A DNA stretch of 64,000 bases from Hydrogenoanaerobacterium saccharovorans. Its GTDB lineage: Bacteria > Bacillota > Clostridia > Oscillospirales > Ruminococcaceae. Position numbers and translations under genes: made by a program. Shown in pieces: positions 1 to 9,626 of the stretch. Position 1 is the first letter of the stretch. Every line of letters starts with the position of its first letter. Under the pieces are notes generated by a model that made no database searches, was not told where the DNA came from, and saw only the letters and a program-made list of their open reading frames with translations. The stretch lies in contig NZ_JACSNR010000007.1 in assembly GCF_016901815.1 (NCBI RefSeq), positions 1-64,000 on the forward strand, in the 5' to 3' direction.

Positions 1-290
1 AATTTGACACGAAGTTAAGATTTTGTCCTGACACCCGGAAACTGACCCTCTGATTTGCTTTCCCCTGGTGGCGTCTCTGGCTGCCCTGGGGCGCCCTCGA
101 CTGCTGGGCCAACTTCGGGCCAATTTGGCCCGAAGTTAAGATTTTGTCCTGGCACCCAGGAGCTGACCCGGTGTTCTGCTTCCCCAGGGGCGTTGTTGCC
201 GGCTCCGAGGCGCTCTCGACTGCTGGGCCAACTTCGTGTCAAATTGACACGAAGTTAAGATTTTGTCCTGACACCCTGGAGTCGGCCCAT
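1..290. repeat. Tandem array of about 120-bp units, each with a perfect palindrome
   Basis: At least two and a half units are visible. The right arm of a palindrome (ending GAAGTT) recurs at 16, 137 and 256, a period of 121 then 119 bp. Complete palindromes lie at 111-137 and 230-256, each with 13-bp arms around one unpaired base. The arms read AACTTCGGGCCAA in one and AACTTCGTGTCAA in the other, so both arms changed together. Each copy is followed by AAGATTTTGTCCTG and a C-rich stretch, and the unit ends in CGACTGCTGGGCC; the middles are more diverged. The array continues beyond the left edge. No convincing gene lies here. The same palindrome and flank occur inside parB at 1734-1764. Confidence 0.85.
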
Positions 291-313
291 GATGCTGTGA
301 TAACTGTCATGGA

Positions 314-1290: not shown

Positions 1291-2226
1291 TTACTCTTCC
1301 ACTCCGCTTTCGTCATTCTGTGCCTTCCACTTTTCCAGCAGCGAGAAGATCACTTCCTCCATCTGCTTCTGGGAATAGCTTTCCGGGAAGTACTGCCGGA
1401 TCTTCTTCTCCTTGATAGTGATTCGGACTGGCGGCGCCGGCTTACTGCAAAGGGCTGAGTAGGCAATATCAAAGCTGAAGGATCCATCTTGGCTGCTCCC
1501 TCTAAGCTGCACAGCCTGGGCCAGCGACACAGAAGAATCCGTGGTCTTGAGGATCTCTGCCACCATCTTCTGGTCCTCTGGCTTCATGAATGACAGGTTA
1601 TAGGCTGAGTTCAAGGGGATTTTCTTTTCGTCCACTCGATCAAGCAGCTCCGGGATCAGTTCTGTAAGACGGATAAAACGCTGGATGGTTCTCGCACTAT
1701 TGTCGGTTCCCTTGGCTACCTGTTCATCCGCTCTTAACTTCGTGTCAAACTGACACGAAGTTAAATCCGTCCTGACGCCCTGGTGTTTCATGGCTTCCAT
1801 CTTCATGCGATACGCCCACGCTTTTTCACTGGGCAGCAGCTCCTCTCGCTGGAGATTGCTGTCCACCATGACTATGGTGGCAGCGTCATCATCGAGATCC
1901 TGAACTATCGCCGGGATAGTTCCCAGGCCGAGCAGTTCACAAGCGTGTTTGCGGCGATGTCCGGCAATCAGCTCGTACCCCTCGCCCCGGTCCGCAGGCA
2001 TGGGTCGGACGATCACCGGGACCAGGACACCCTGCTCCCTGATGCTGTCCACCAGCTCCTGCATATCGACATCGTCCCGCACCTGGAACGGGTGATGAGC
2101 GAAGCTGTGAAGGCTGGACAAAGGGATCTCTCGGATCTTCTCCCTATTGGCGCCCTGATCGCTGTTGCTGACAGCGAACAGATCGTCAATCGTGTTCAGT
2201 TTCATTTTGCTTTTCATGCTGTTCAA
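1291..2226 (-). CDS. parB: ParB-family partition protein
   Basis: A 311-residue ParB/Spo0J-like DNA-binding protein for segregation or maintenance of the element, presumably binding a parS-like site and working with the ParA ATPase just upstream. The N-terminal ParB domain spans about residues 30-135, with the nucleotide-binding-type motif GHRRKHACELLG at 89-100. A helix-turn-helix follows at about 168-187. Residues 155-165 are encoded by a perfect 31-nt DNA palindrome directly before the helix-turn-helix. The start is a TTG at 2226, preceded by AGGAGG nine bases away; the next ATG (2217) is too far from that site. The gene lies 24 bases downstream of parA. Confidence 0.93.
   Translation of the reverse strand: MNSMKSKMKLNTIDDLFAVSNSDQGANREKIREIPLSSLHSFAHHPFQVRDDVDMQELVDSIREQGVLVPVIVRPMPADRGEGYELIAGHRRKHACELLGLGTIPAIVQDLDDDAATIVMVDSNLQREELLPSEKAWAYRMKMEAMKHQGVRTDLTSCQFDTKLRADEQVAKGTDNSARTIQRFIRLTELIPELLDRVDEKKIPLNSAYNLSFMKPEDQKMVAEILKTTDSSVSLAQAVQLRGSSQDGSFSFDIAYSALCSKPAPPVRITIKEKKIRQYFPESYSQKQMEEVIFSLLEKWKAQNDESGVEE
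1734..1764. repeat. Perfect 31-nt palindrome inside parB
   Basis: Arms TTAACTTCGTGTCA (1734-1747) and its exact complement (1751-1764) enclose a three-base loop. The palindrome and its flank toward GTCCTGACGCCC match the repeat units at 1-290. In parB it encodes residues 155-165 in frame. Confidence 0.95.
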
Positions 2227-2250: not shown

Positions 2251-3042
2251 CTACTTCTCAAGTCTCAAAACCTCTCGTGTAAGATTGATATAACCTTCAG
2301 CCACCTTCCCGCCGGGATCATAAGCGAAAATGCTCTTACCCTCGACGCTGATTTCCTTGGCCCGGACGGAATGGGGGATCTCAGTGTCGAACACTCTGAT
2401 CTGGCTGCCATAAGTCTCTCGCAGCAGAGCTGAAGTCTCCTTGGCAAAATTGGTGCGATTGTCCACCATGGTAAGCAGGATTCCTTCGATCTGAAGGCCA
2501 GGATTGATCTGCCGTCTCACTCTTTTGACCGTCTGCAGAAGCTGTTCAAGCCCCTTGGCGGGGAGGTACTCAGCCTGGACCGGGATAATGATCGTGTCGG
2601 CGGCGGCCAGGGCATTGATAGTCAACATACCCAGGGAAGGCTGGCAGTCGATGAGGATATGGGTGTACTGTTCCTTGACGGTGTCCAGGTACTGTCTCAG
2701 GACCGTCTCACGGCTCATGGCGTTCACCAGGGAGACCTCCATACCGGACAGCTGGATGTTCGCCGGGAGCAGATCCACCCCTTCCGAATGATGCAGGATG
2801 CCTTCCCCAGGACGCAGCGGTTCGTCCATCATGATGCGGCCCATCGCATCGGACAGTGTAAAGGGCAGCTGGTCCGGCTGGGGATAGCCCAGGCTGATGG
2901 TGAGGCTTCCCTGCGGATCGGCGTCGATCAGCAGGACTTTCTTTCCCGCCCGTGCGAGGGCGATACCCAGGTTTGCGGTAGTCGTGGTCTTGCCCACGCC
3001 GCCCTTCTGGTTGACAATGGCAGTTATTTTACTGGTCTGCAT
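2251..3042 (-). CDS. parA: ParA-family partition ATPase
   Basis: A 263-residue ParA/Soj-type Walker ATPase that would bind nonspecific DNA and pull ParB complexes apart. The deviant Walker A motif KGGVGKTTT lies at about residues 13-21, Walker A' at VLLIDADPQGS and Walker B at HILIDCQPSLG. Length is typical for a soluble ParA without an N-terminal regulatory domain. AAGGAAGG precedes the ATG. It is co-oriented with and immediately upstream of parB, and follows the initiator-like gene across a terminator, a layout common on conjugative elements of Firmicutes. Confidence 0.95.
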   Translation of the reverse strand: MQTSKITAIVNQKGGVGKTTTTANLGIALARAGKKVLLIDADPQGSLTISLGYPQPDQLPFTLSDAMGRIMMDEPLRPGEGILHHSEGVDLLPANIQLSGMEVSLVNAMSRETVLRQYLDTVKEQYTHILIDCQPSLGMLTINALAAADTIIIPVQAEYLPAKGLEQLLQTVKRVRRQINPGLQIEGILLTMVDNRTNFAKETSALLRETYGSQIRVFDTEIPHSVRAKEISVEGKSIFAYDPGGKVAEGYINLTREVLRLEK

Positions 3043-3109: not shown

Positions 3110-3168
3110 AAAAAAGCACCGCCTAAAAATCAGGCGAAACCATGTCGTGGTTCACCTGAGAGGCGGTA
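3110..3168 (-). terminator. Long hairpin terminator overlapping the initiator 3' end
   Basis: Arms ACCGCCT (3118-3124) and AGGCGGT (3161-3167) enclose a second inner stem, and the minus strand then runs into TGCTTTTTTATG. The structure overlaps the last codons of the gene at 3123-4190. Confidence 0.75.
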
Positions 3169-4190
3169 TGGTTACTCATGGTGGTAACAGAGTTGAAAAG
3201 CACTGTCAACAGGTATTGCTTCATGTTCCGTATCTCTGTGGTATTATTCTTCAGGCATTGCATTACATAGCGAATATGATCGCTATTCAGATTCAGAAAA
3301 CGCTGACGCACAATCTCCGCATCGAAATCGCCGCTGGCTATCCGCATAACCTTGCGTTTGGCACATACAGTTTCGACTATCAGCTCAACTATTTCATCCA
3401 GCTCATCTTTGCGATCCAGAAATGCCTTACACAGATGCTCGTACTCGATATTCTCCAGCACCTGCTTCCGATAGCTTTCTGCTCTGGTGTACTTCACTGT
3501 TTCCCTTCCCTTCTCTTCCGGGTGAAAGGAAGGATAGGAAAGGAAAGGAATAGAATCAGTATTTGATCTATCAGTATTTGATCTATCAGTATTTGATCTA
3601 TTAGTATTTGATCTATTAGTATTTAATTGCGCGGTCATTTCCGTATATGGCTTAACCATATCCGGATTTTCCGTATATGGTGAAGTCGTATATGGAGAAG
3701 CCGTATTTGGAGATGCTTCAGAAGAATCACTCGCTTCCGGTTCAGTGCTCGGGCATTGGAGGCCTCCGATCGGCTCGGGCACTGCGGCGGCGGCGCTGGA
3801 GGTGGCCTTCCGCTTTCCAGCCTTTCCCTTCTTCGGTTCCGCTGCCCCTGACTTGGGCGGCTTGGAGGAGGGCGGACATGGATCACTCGGCTTGCTCTGT
3901 GGCTGCTCGTAGATTATGTACTCGGTATCTGTGATCTGCCCTTTCTCATTGCGCAGTTGGTTCCGGACGATGTAGCCGGCAGCTTCCAGCTCCCGCAGAG
4001 CGCTGCCAATGGCATCCACCCCTTCCTTGCACATCTTTGCGAGGCCTCGGTTTGTATAGTTCCATTCATCGGGCAGCGACAGCATCATCGATAGCAGTCC
4101 TTTGGATTTTAACGACAATGCTGGATTGCGCAAATGATGGTTAGACATGATCGTGTAATCCCGGGTTCGTTGAACTCTGAAAATTGACAT
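3123..4190 (-). CDS. Replication-initiator-like protein (winged-helix N-terminus, DUF6017-like C-terminus)
   Basis: A 355-residue protein. Residues 1-95 (SNHHLRNPALSLKSKG... then LPDEWNYTNRGLAKMCKEG) resemble the winged-helix region of plasmid/ICE replication initiators. Residues about 100-215 are low-complexity linker with Lys/Pro/Ser-rich and Asn-Thr-Asp-Arg-Ser repeats. Residues about 225-340 form a helical C-terminal domain like that seen in DUF6017 proteins on Tn916/Tn1549-type elements. The linker is encoded by 15-bp DNA iterons (3556-3629), as in initiator genes that contain their own origin. It starts one base before the end of the upstream small gene. The role in replication is inferred from architecture and the neighbouring parAB. 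Confidence 0.72.
   Translation of the reverse strand: MSIFRVQRTRDYTIMSNHHLRNPALSLKSKGLLSMMLSLPDEWNYTNRGLAKMCKEGVDAIGSALRELEAAGYIVRNQLRNEKGQITDTEYIIYEQPQSKPSDPCPPSSKPPKSGAAEPKKGKAGKRKATSSAAAAVPEPIGGLQCPSTEPEASDSSEASPNTASPYTTSPYTENPDMVKPYTEMTAQLNTNRSNTNRSNTDRSNTDRSNTDSIPFLSYPSFHPEEKGRETVKYTRAESYRKQVLENIEYEHLCKAFLDRKDELDEIVELIVETVCAKRKVMRIASGDFDAEIVRQRFLNLNSDHIRYVMQCLKNNTTEIRNMKQYLLTVLFNSVTTMSNHTASQVNHDMVSPDF
3556..3629. repeat. Five 15-bp iterons inside the initiator-like gene
   Basis: The unit TCAGTATTTGATCTA is perfect at 3556-3570, 3571-3585 and 3586-3600. TTAGTATTTGATCTA follows at 3601-3615 and a degenerate copy at 3616-3629. They encode the Asn-Thr-(Asn/Asp)-Arg-Ser repeats at about residues 188-212. 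A second set of looser CGTATATGG repeats follows at about 3650-3710. AT-rich direct repeats of this kind are what replication initiators bind. Confidence 0.9.
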
Positions 4191-6797: not shown

Positions 6798-7799
6798 ATG
6801 GAACCCAAAACAGCTCAAAAATGTCCTCAACTCCTGAGAGACTTTCTCTATTACATGGAGATAATCCGTGGCTGCTCACCAAAGACAGTGACAGGCTATT
6901 ATCTGGATCTCAGCCTGTTTCTCAGGTATATCAAGGCAACTAAGGTCGAAAATCTCCAGGAATTAGATCTCAAAAAAGTGTCCATTGAAAATCTGGACAA
7001 TGCCACAATCTGCAATGTATCGCTGTCTGACATTTATGCTTTTCTGAACTATGTCACATCTGTGAGAGGAAATTCTGCTGTTACCCGGGCCAGGAAGATC
7101 GGTAGCCTGAGATCCTTCTACAAATTCATCTGCACTAAGACAACTCTGCTGCAAAAGAACCCGACTTTGGATCTTGATGTTCCCATGCATCGGCGCAGCC
7201 TACCAATATACCTCAGTCTCGATGAATCCAAAGCATTCTTACAGGCCGTCAACGACGCTCAAGATTCCCGGGATTTCTGCATCTTTACCCTCTTGCTGAA
7301 CTGCGGCATGCGGCTTTCAGAGCTGATTGGTCTCAACATGTCAGACTTCAACATGAAAGAGCGAACCCTGCGCTTACTGGGCAAAGGCAACAAAGAGCGG
7401 ATCATTTATCTGAACCACGCCTGCATAAAAGCTATTCAGGACTATATTCCTATCCGCAATCAGTTACTGATAAATCACAACATTTCATCAGAGCCTGCAT
7501 TTCTCCTTTCTGAGCGCTGTACCAGACTTTCCGGGCGCCGGGTCGAACAAATTATGAAAAAGTATCTCTCGGTTGCCGGGCTGGACAATCATGGATACAC
7601 ACCCCATAAACTGCGCCATACGGCTGCCACACTGATGTACCAATACGGAGGGACCGATATTCTCATCCTCCAACGAATTTTGGGACACTCAAATCTGTCA
7701 ACAACTGAAATCTACACCCACGCTGCTGACGATCAAGTCAAGCATGCTGCAGACAGTTCTCCCTTGGCAGATTTTGTACTTAGTTCGGGAGCAGAGTAA
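6798..7799 (+). CDS. Xer-type tyrosine recombinase carried by the accessory region
   Basis: A 333-residue site-specific recombinase with an N-terminal SAM-like core-binding domain (about 10-115) and a C-terminal catalytic domain (about 135-320). All catalytic residues are visible: Arg172, Lys196, His270, Arg273, His297 and nucleophile Tyr306 (TTEIYTH). GGGAGG lies before the ATG. It has the same length and catalytic spacing as the second Xer gene at 8613-9626, with about 60% identity judged by eye, but its base composition is much poorer in GC. It is the only plus-strand gene of the accessory block. It probably catalyses integration, excision or dimer resolution of the element. Confidence 0.92.
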   Translation: MEPKTAQKCPQLLRDFLYYMEIIRGCSPKTVTGYYLDLSLFLRYIKATKVENLQELDLKKVSIENLDNATICNVSLSDIYAFLNYVTSVRGNSAVTRARKIGSLRSFYKFICTKTTLLQKNPTLDLDVPMHRRSLPIYLSLDESKAFLQAVNDAQDSRDFCIFTLLLNCGMRLSELIGLNMSDFNMKERTLRLLGKGNKERIIYLNHACIKAIQDYIPIRNQLLINHNISSEPAFLLSERCTRLSGRRVEQIMKKYLSVAGLDNHGYTPHKLRHTAATLMYQYGGTDILILQRILGHSNLSTTEIYTHAADDQVKHAADSSPLADFVLSSGAE

Positions 7800-7808
7800 A
7801 TATCCCAT

Positions 7809-7840
7809 AAAAAAAGCGGAGGTATAACCCCCGCTTTTTT
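7809..7840 (+). terminator. Intrinsic terminator after the element recombinase
   Basis: GCGGAGG and CCCCCGC arms with one mismatch, framed by A and T runs; it can act in both directions. Confidence 0.85.
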
Positions 7841-8473
7841 CATATCGCAGCTCTATTCATCTGACAAGCAGTTATCTTTACATTTTCTCTTCCCTGGTCC
7901 ATGGATAAGAAAAATCTCTCTTGCTTAACAGGGCCATAAGCATGGAATACCGTTTTGATACAAGCAAAAAGCCTGTAAAGGCAATTTGCTACACAGATGA
8001 TAGTTAGACTTCGTAAATTAAAATTTAGCGAAATCAAGGCGAGGAGAAAATGACCATACAAGCGTCTGAATCTGTACGGATCATATATTGAGTTTCAGTA
8101 TTCATGTTGCAGCATCTGATTGCCAGTCACACATATATTATAGAGATAATCTCTGTTAATATGTTGTGCGCTGTGATTGCTTGAGCGGTCTGGTTTCAGT
8201 TTCGCACTGGCTCAGGCTTTTATCAGCAGCAGACAACGACTCACGGATTGTTCGTCTGGATTGGCTAGGACTTAATATGCTGGTCTGTACACAGGAATCA
8301 GCTGCCAAGCAGTTTCTGAAGGGCTGCGTCGTAAACAAAGCGTCAGACAGGTTTCACAACAGATTATATCCAGCACCCAGGCATACAGGCTTAGGTTATA
8401 TGGATTAGAGGGATCTGATCTGTACAGCCACTGGCTCTGACGACAGCTTTACCTGACGCCAATGGTAATTTAC
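7841..8473. other. Gene-poor interval between the accessory region and the core chromosome
   Basis: About 630 bases with only short, unconvincing ORFs on both strands and no recognisable RNA. Base composition shifts from AT-rich to chromosome-like toward its right end. This is the likely place for the element boundary, but I could not find a repeated att core. Confidence 0.6.
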
Positions 8474-8514
8474 TCCCTATTTGTTAATTTTATAACAAAT
8501 AGGGAACTTTTTTG
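8474..8514. repeat. Perfect 13-bp inverted repeat with a 6-bp centre
   Basis: Arms TCCCTATTTGTTA (8474-8486) and TAACAAATAGGGA (8493-8505) flank ATTTTA, and a T run follows on the plus strand. It lies 26 bases before the xer promoter. It fits either an AT-rich terminator or a Xer-like site, where two half-sites flank a 6-bp crossover. Confidence 0.75.
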
Positions 8515-8530
8515 CTTGCTGACCGTTTTC

Positions 8531-8559
8531 TTGAATTCGATATGGCTTTATACTATAAT
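8531..8559 (+). promoter_or_regulatory. Sigma-A promoter of the chromosomal xer gene
   Basis: TTGAAT and TATAAT are separated by exactly 17 bases, about 50 bases before the GTG start. Confidence 0.85.
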
Positions 8560-8612
8560 AAGTACAGTAACTATCAGTCACCGGATTCCAAATGCAGTCA
8601 GGAGGTTTTGCA

Positions 8613-9626
8613 GTGAAACGGGAATATGCGGAGGCCTGCCCTCCCCTGCTGAAAGATTTTCTCTACTATATGGAAACCATCCGCGGGCGCTCTCCCCGGA
8701 CTGTGGACGGCTATTTTATCGACCTGCGCACCTTCCTGCGCTATATCAAGGCGGTCAAGGTGCTGGGACTGCGGGAATTTGATCTCTCGGAGATTACCAT
8801 TGATGACCTGGATTCCTCGGTGATCTGCGGTGTGACACTGTCGGACATCTATGGCTATCTGAACTTCACCCTGACAGAGCGGGATAACTCCGCTGTGACC
8901 CGGGCCAGGAAGGTTTCCAGCATCCGCTCCTTTTATAAGTATATCACCACCAAGACAGATCTGCTGGAAGTGAGCCCTGCCAAGGAGCTGGATCTCCCGG
9001 CTATCCGGAACAGCCTTCCCAAGTTTCTCAGCCTGGAAGAGTCGCTGGATCTGCTTCAGACCGTGGCTGCTGCCCAGAATCCCCGGGATTTCTGTATGAT
9101 CACCTTCCTCATCAACTGCGGAATGCGGGTTTCAGAGCTGGTGGGCCTCAATCTCTCTGATCTCCGGAAAAAAGAAAAAACGCTCCGGCTGCTGGGAAAA
9201 GGCAACAAGGAGCGCATAATCTATGTCAACGAAGCCTGTCTTCAGGCAATGGAAGCATATGAGCCCGTCCGGGCCAAGATTCTCTCGGACCGGCATCGCA
9301 CCAATGAACCGGCGCTGTTTCTCTCAGAACGGGGCAGCCGGATCTCTGCCCGCCGGGTGGAACAGATTCTCGAAAAATATCTGGCTGCTGCCGGTTTATC
9401 CGGGCGAGGCTACTCCCCTCACAAACTGCGCCATACAGCCGCAACACTGATGTATCAGTATGGCGGCGCTGATGTCCGGGTGCTCAAGGAGATCCTTGGA
9501 CACGAGAATCTCTCCACCACCGAGATCTATACCCATGTTTCCAGCCAGCAGATCGAACGGGCCATTGACAGCTCTCCGCTGGCAAAGGTAAAGGCGCCCA
9601 AGTCCCAGGAGGATTCCAAAGAATAG
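8613..9626 (+). CDS. Chromosomal XerC/XerD-type tyrosine recombinase
   Basis: A 337-residue recombinase expected to resolve chromosome dimers at a dif site. Domain layout is the same as in the neighbour at 6798. Catalytic residues fall at identical positions: Arg172, Lys196, His270, Arg273, His297 and Tyr306. I chose the GTG at 8613 because AGGAGG precedes it by seven bases; the ATG at 8592 would place that site inside the gene. Its composition matches the chromosome, and it converges on a SpoIIM-like gene, a neighbourhood typical for xer genes of clostridia, so this is taken as the host copy. XerC and XerD cannot be told apart here. Confidence 0.93.
   Translation: MKREYAEACPPLLKDFLYYMETIRGRSPRTVDGYFIDLRTFLRYIKAVKVLGLREFDLSEITIDDLDSSVICGVTLSDIYGYLNFTLTERDNSAVTRARKVSSIRSFYKYITTKTDLLEVSPAKELDLPAIRNSLPKFLSLEESLDLLQTVAAAQNPRDFCMITFLINCGMRVSELVGLNLSDLRKKEKTLRLLGKGNKERIIYVNEACLQAMEAYEPVRAKILSDRHRTNEPALFLSERGSRISARRVEQILEKYLAAAGLSGRGYSPHKLRHTAATLMYQYGGADVRVLKEILGHENLSTTEIYTHVSSQQIERAIDSSPLAKVKAPKSQEDSKE

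Follow-up and report, generated by a model that had tools for sequence, protein, structure and literature searches.

Partition genes of a large family on mobile elements of gut bacteria contain the site that the encoded protein appears to read

A parS site inside parB is already known from Bacillus subtilis and from SCP1. In B. subtilis, parS-359 is located inside the coding sequence of its own spo0J/parB gene (PMC4442127). The report on SCP1 describes ParABS1 and ParABS2 of Streptomyces as plasmid systems with HTH-type ParBs, whose genes contain an internal parS, with three identical sites around each operon, strict cognate specificity and a 15-bp core in the site of ParB2 (PMC13245405). In the specificity switch between ParB/parS and Noc/NBS, the choice of A or C as the second base from the centre depends on residue 201 (Caulobacter ParB numbering), and an arginine at this residue was shown to read that base, cytosine 6 (PMC7383237).

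Here, we describe a large family of DNA-partition genes from mobile elements of gut bacteria that, judging from sequence comparison, carry the site which their own protein appears to read. Like parS-359, the sites of this family are located in their own parB, whereas parS-359 belongs to a chromosomal gene and has a single fixed sequence of 16 bp, without known covarying specificities or cassette exchange. The SCP1 systems also have HTH-ParB genes with an internal parS, but they are two individual systems from another phylum, and no family-wide link between site and helix, and no swapping, is reported in the accessible part of their description. The switch between ParB and Noc resembles the family in that the equivalent residue, 206, decides the same position, in nature. 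However, ParB and Noc have two sites of 16 bp, which are even and not located in the gene, while the family has an odd, longer palindrome with 56 cores in our sample and varies mostly at residue 179, the position after the 173-equivalent of ParB/Noc. The family sites, odd palindromes of 15-31 nt, also differ in their letters from the canonical 16-bp chromosomal parS (TGTTTCACGTGAAACA). No description of a swappable cassette with a readable code, or of a ParB family with a co-encoded code and lock-and-key exchange, was found in the searchable literature, which covers few subscription journals and preprints.

The window, a stretch of 64,000 nucleotides from Hydrogenoanaerobacterium saccharovorans, contains the par genes listed in Table 1. 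The window ParB matches Spo0J/Noc/ParB structures in profile comparison (best E 3e-31), with a match extending through the HTH of Noc, and Foldseek matched its fold to ParB/Noc bound to nucleotide. The HTH_ParB profile scored 20.8 bits, just under the 22.6-bit cut-off, and G89, H90, R91 and R92 are invariant among 58 ParB homologs. An adjacent ParA ATPase, a ParB N domain and an HTH are all present, as in ParABS systems with an HTH-type ParB, and covariation and prediction point to a cognate palindromic parS near or in the operon. In the structure model, the HTH helices span residues 166-172 and 178-189, and the peptide encoded by the palindrome (residues 153-163) forms a low-confidence linker from the N domain to the HTH, where many different sequences can be tolerated.

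Table 1. Features of the par region in the window. Half-site positions are numbered outward from the centre base.
Feature	Coordinates	Strand	Basis
parB, ParB_N (CTPase-fold) domain and HTH, 311 aa	1291..2226	-	ParB_N E=8.6e-20
Putative parS-like palindromic site in parB, codons 155-165	1734..1764	-	letters and homolog comparison
Half-site of the parB palindrome, from centre outward: pos2 A, pos3 C, pos4 T, pos5 G, pos6 T, pos7 G			
Specificity cassette (site and HTH recognition helix)	1666..1785	-	block apparently exchanged between near-identical relatives
Recognition helix S177-L187 (SARTIQRFIRL)	1666..1698	-	model helix 178-189; covariation of residue 179 with half-site
R179 codon	1690-1692	-	in recognition helix
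N206 codon, column of ParB/Noc 201	1609..1611	-	tracks half-site position 2; alignment; PMC7383237
parA (Walker ATPase, AAA_31), adjoins parB	2251..3042	-	AAA_31 E=1.2e-55
Replication-initiator-like gene (HTH_36 and DUF6017), adjacent	3123..4190	-	domain matches
Array of sites, units about 119-121 bp	1..304	.	continues on contig C65, 112576-112825
Half array site, cut by contig start	1..16	.	
Array site, core variant CGGGCC	111..139	.	
Array site, core same as parB site	230..260	.	

The palindrome inside the window parB, TTAACTTCGTGTCAAACTGACACGAAGTTAA, consists of 14-bp arms and a 3-nt centre, and on the coding strand it encodes LTSCQFDTKL and the first base of R165. The original prediction had described a perfect palindrome at residues 155-165; a 31-nt inverted repeat is indeed located there, but its innermost pair is mismatched. 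A pattern search of the window gave three matches against 0.02 expected. When the 2.35-Mb genome was searched, the core was found elsewhere at 111-137 and 230-256, and contig C65 carries two copies at its end; no further copies were found, and the reversed-control pattern gave none. The claim that parB and the array share a flank held as well, with 85% identity over about 51 nt (parB 1736-1786, E=1.5e-9). The two flanks differ by 2 nt in length, and the reading frame is broken in the array.

Genomes belonging to the order and the class of H. saccharovorans yielded 144 parB homologs. An in-frame odd palindrome occupies the same codons in 134 of them, always centred on codon position 1, and its letters vary widely, with 56 cores among the homologs (for example TTAACTTCGTCCCAATTTGGGACGAAGTTAA, AAAATTCGGGCCAAGTTGGCCCGAATTTT and AACTTTGTCTCTTGAAGAGACAAAGTT). 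Over all 144 homologs the mean palindrome score was 10.0, compared with 4.0 for synonymous-codon shuffles; 118 scored above all 40 of their own shuffles, and a palindrome scoring at least 9 elsewhere in parB was found in only 4 of the 144 genes. The two arms vary in concert, and the encoded residues vary with them (TS...K versus EN...NF), which indicates that selection acts on the DNA. Homologs that keep the peptide in codons forming no palindrome had been named as the finding that would speak against a site, and the opposite was found. A clear internal palindrome is missing in about ten of the 144 homologs. The segment is absent from L036, L067 and L132, so the region varies in length. The scan of viral contigs revealed no relatives.

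The absence of the segment from these three homologs could also be expected if a mobile palindromic coding element had inserted in frame into parB, as Rickettsia palindromic elements do. This earlier suggestion did not survive the comparison and is exceedingly improbable: the great majority of this deep family has the palindrome at one common position, with different letters and many unrelated cores, and copies in the genome itself are confined to parB and the array, with none in other genes.

Two observations concern single homologs. In L176 (1-260), the parB reading frame diverges from that of the family exactly where the cassette begins, as though through an insertion or recombination. In L031 (1936-1960), the edge of the site holds a stop codon (AAGTAA); this parB is probably decaying, with the palindrome still recognisable.

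To relate the protein to its site, we compiled code tables from 105 dereplicated proteins. With the residues encoded by the palindrome excluded, the most informative column for positions 4 and 5 was residue 179 of the recognition helix (z about 9), followed by residue 178, and position 2 was tracked by residue 206. Arginine or lysine at residue 179 goes with G at position 5 (35/35), asparagine with CC at positions 4-5 (20/21), aspartate with G at position 4 (18/18), glutamate with CA (7/8) and alanine with T at position 4 (6/6). Arginine at residue 206 goes with C at position 2 in all 26 cases, and any other residue with A in 77 of 79. Among 61 disjoint sister pairs, the association was significant for residue 179 with positions 4-5 (p=2e-11) and for residue 206 with position 2 (p=4e-4), while the crossed controls in the same pairs gave p=0.68 and 1. 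Residue 206 aligns with Arg201 of Noc (TERHAR) and Gly201 of Spo0J/ParB (AGHAR), the column with the known cytosine contact, and covariation has thus recovered a contact seen in crystal structures. The outer arms (positions 8-13) stay palindromic, with zero mismatches at position 11 in the 105 sequences, and no HTH residue was found to track them. Through this protein-DNA covariation, the proposal that ParB binds the motif and that its own gene carries a site gains strong support.

Long arms, a very short loop and strong covariation in the stem would also suit a hairpin of mRNA or single-strand DNA, acting in translation control or in priming after conjugation. We consider this very unlikely. 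An mRNA hairpin should favour G.U, and the stem mismatches show no G.T excess (18 G.T versus 33 A.C), so that a double-stranded protein site fits better. Moreover, the letters track the encoded HTH, which a hairpin does not need, and copies occur in intergenic DNA. A recombinase target was considered too, in view of the resemblance of the arm to loxP/rox arms (TAACTTCG); as the core varies in step with the helix of ParB, the likeness was treated as coincidence.

The code was then applied to held-out genes. A two-base rule was correct for 14 of 23 plasmid and phage genes, because R/K fixes position 5 and not 4, whereas other residues fix mainly position 4. A rule resting mainly on one base, which the training tables supplied, was adopted after this first look at the held-out genes and then fixed for the phylum-level set. 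On the plasmid and phage genes it was correct in 21/21 cases (6.0 with shuffled helices), where 2 of the 21 proteins match training proteins at every aligned position and some others resemble them. In the subset with less than 70% identity to any training protein, all 11 predictions were correct (shuffled 3.9). The residue-206 rule was correct for 22 of the 23 genes. Without further change, the rule was scored on additional genomes from the whole phylum and gave 14/15 correct predictions (shuffled 4.4), and 16/16 for residue 206. This set includes members at 35-40% identity, in which a given residue is again paired with its usual bases.

We compared 56 protein pairs with flanks at least 88% identical. 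Residue 179 differs in all 24 pairs with a changed core and in none of the 32 pairs with the same core. In the 24 changed-core pairs, identity is 0.76-0.99 per bin, but only 0.25-0.42 at about residues 153-182. Specifically, L072 and L109, which occur in one genome, have a protein backbone that is 99-100% identical and a cassette that is 37% identical; at the DNA level the changed block covers roughly 130 nt, with mismatches far denser than in the surroundings. The apparently exchanged block comprises about 35 codons holding the site and the helix. Cassette similarity follows backbone similarity weakly (0.28, versus 0.44-0.61 for other protein windows). This pattern is most simply explained by recombination that replaced the block, and rapid divergence in place keeps some residual plausibility.

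Since the site and the helix lie about 60 nt apart and are apparently exchanged as a block, their association might reflect linkage alone, without binding. This is highly improbable, as residues closer to the site follow positions 4-5 less well than residue 179 does, and residue 206, which lies outside the cassette, is associated with position 2 alone, the contact established for Noc-NBS. Linkage also has to face the recurrence of the same residue with the same bases at 35-40% identity, and by itself it leaves the persistence of the palindromes unexplained.

Taken together, the comparisons suggest that the palindrome is very probably the cognate DNA-binding site, a parS-like centromere site, of the ParB that encodes it. 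ParB dimers would bind the palindrome, then clamp and spread like other ParB CTPases, and ParA would partition the element, a putative integrative conjugative element. The site is located about 20 codons (about 60 nt) from the reading helix, so recombination in the conserved flanks of parB would replace both, and a new matched pair could arise in one step. We favour, as the likely account of the family, a mobile-element ParB with a modular cassette of site and reading helix that natural recombination swaps as a unit, giving many orthogonal ParB-parS pairs with a simple residue-to-base code and no mismatched intermediate.

The centromere array sopC of F consists of tandem 43-bp units with an inverted repeat in each, near the par genes. 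The window array likewise has tandem units with an inverted repeat near par genes, but its units are about 120 bp long and seem to be copied from the site inside parB. It includes at least four sites about 120 bp apart. One array unit has a different core (CGGGCC). An array of this type was found only in the H. saccharovorans genome among the genomes searched. Its flank is homologous to codons of the family motif HQGxRTDLTS, encoding part of it, and carries a 2-nt change that breaks the frame. The original prediction had offered derivation of the array from parB as one option, and these features make it likely; the array would then be a multi-copy centromere descended from the site inside parB.

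Both contigs end within the same palindrome array, indicating that the assembly was broken there. Contig C65 encodes PrgI/TraG-like, TrbL-like and M23 proteins of type IV secretion. These genes place the array probably between the conjugation module and the par/rep module of one integrative conjugative element, with the join of C65 to C56 inferred. Several other features were observed in this region. Genes for a RelB/DinJ antitoxin and a YafQ-type toxin are located at 638-1254, between parB and the array, and two tandem XerC-like tyrosine recombinases (6798-9626) are encoded where the element borders on housekeeping genes of the chromosome. The replication-initiator-like gene contains tandem 15-nt direct repeats at 3555-3629 (ATCAGTATTTGATCT and variants), encoding (NTDRS)n, which look like iterons in a rep gene. 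If they are iterons, they would be a second case of a site within the gene of its own binding protein.

In the DNA around 134 genes, we listed 15 extra sites with the gene's own core (about 13 distinct), compared with 0.20 for foreign cores. These copies outside parB match the specificity of their own ParB. They occur in 4 of the 134 loci, namely the window array, L126 (two), L090 (two) and L086 (eight); no second site was found in the surrounding DNA of the other 130, and we rejected second sites as a general rule. Of the ParBs without an internal site, L150 was the only one for which a site elsewhere agreed with the code: CTTTGGACAAGTTGTCCAAAG lies 1.6 kb downstream and fits its own residue 179 (K). 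A role in incompatibility was unsupported, since co-resident ParBs do not avoid the same core: in co-resident elements, 4 of 56 pairs have identical cores, versus 2.1% between genomes. In L210 (7563-19817), the transfer region of a conjugative element has nine sites of nearly one core within 12 kb, and a large NlpC/P60 gene contains one of these.

As with KorB on RK2, the ParB-bound site might be mainly an operator, through which ParB represses its own operon and, in loci with extra copies, other genes of the element, with partition secondary. L086 has about ten sites over some 12 kb, mostly intergenic, and in L086/G098 most of these lie between conjugation-region genes, as expected of operators; ParB bound inside parB could also block its own transcription. 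We nevertheless regard a mainly operator function as rather unlikely, because the conserved copy is located mid-gene rather than at a promoter, because parA and a replication-initiator-like gene are adjacent, and because the spacing of about 120 bp resembles that of centromere arrays. As a binding site of ParB, the palindrome could possibly serve partition, autoregulation or both.

A DNA-binding protein and its site must somehow change jointly while staying functional, and the laboratory change of ParB/Noc specificity required ordered permissive mutations. Holding the lock and the key in one exchangeable block appears to avoid the mismatch problem. The literature we found contains no mapped partition sites for gut Bacillota conjugative elements of this kind, and for many of these elements the parB sequence alone predicts the centromere site. 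The family provides natural matched pairs by the dozen, along with a directly testable residue-to-base code, and it could supply orthogonal ParB-parS pairs for DNA imaging.
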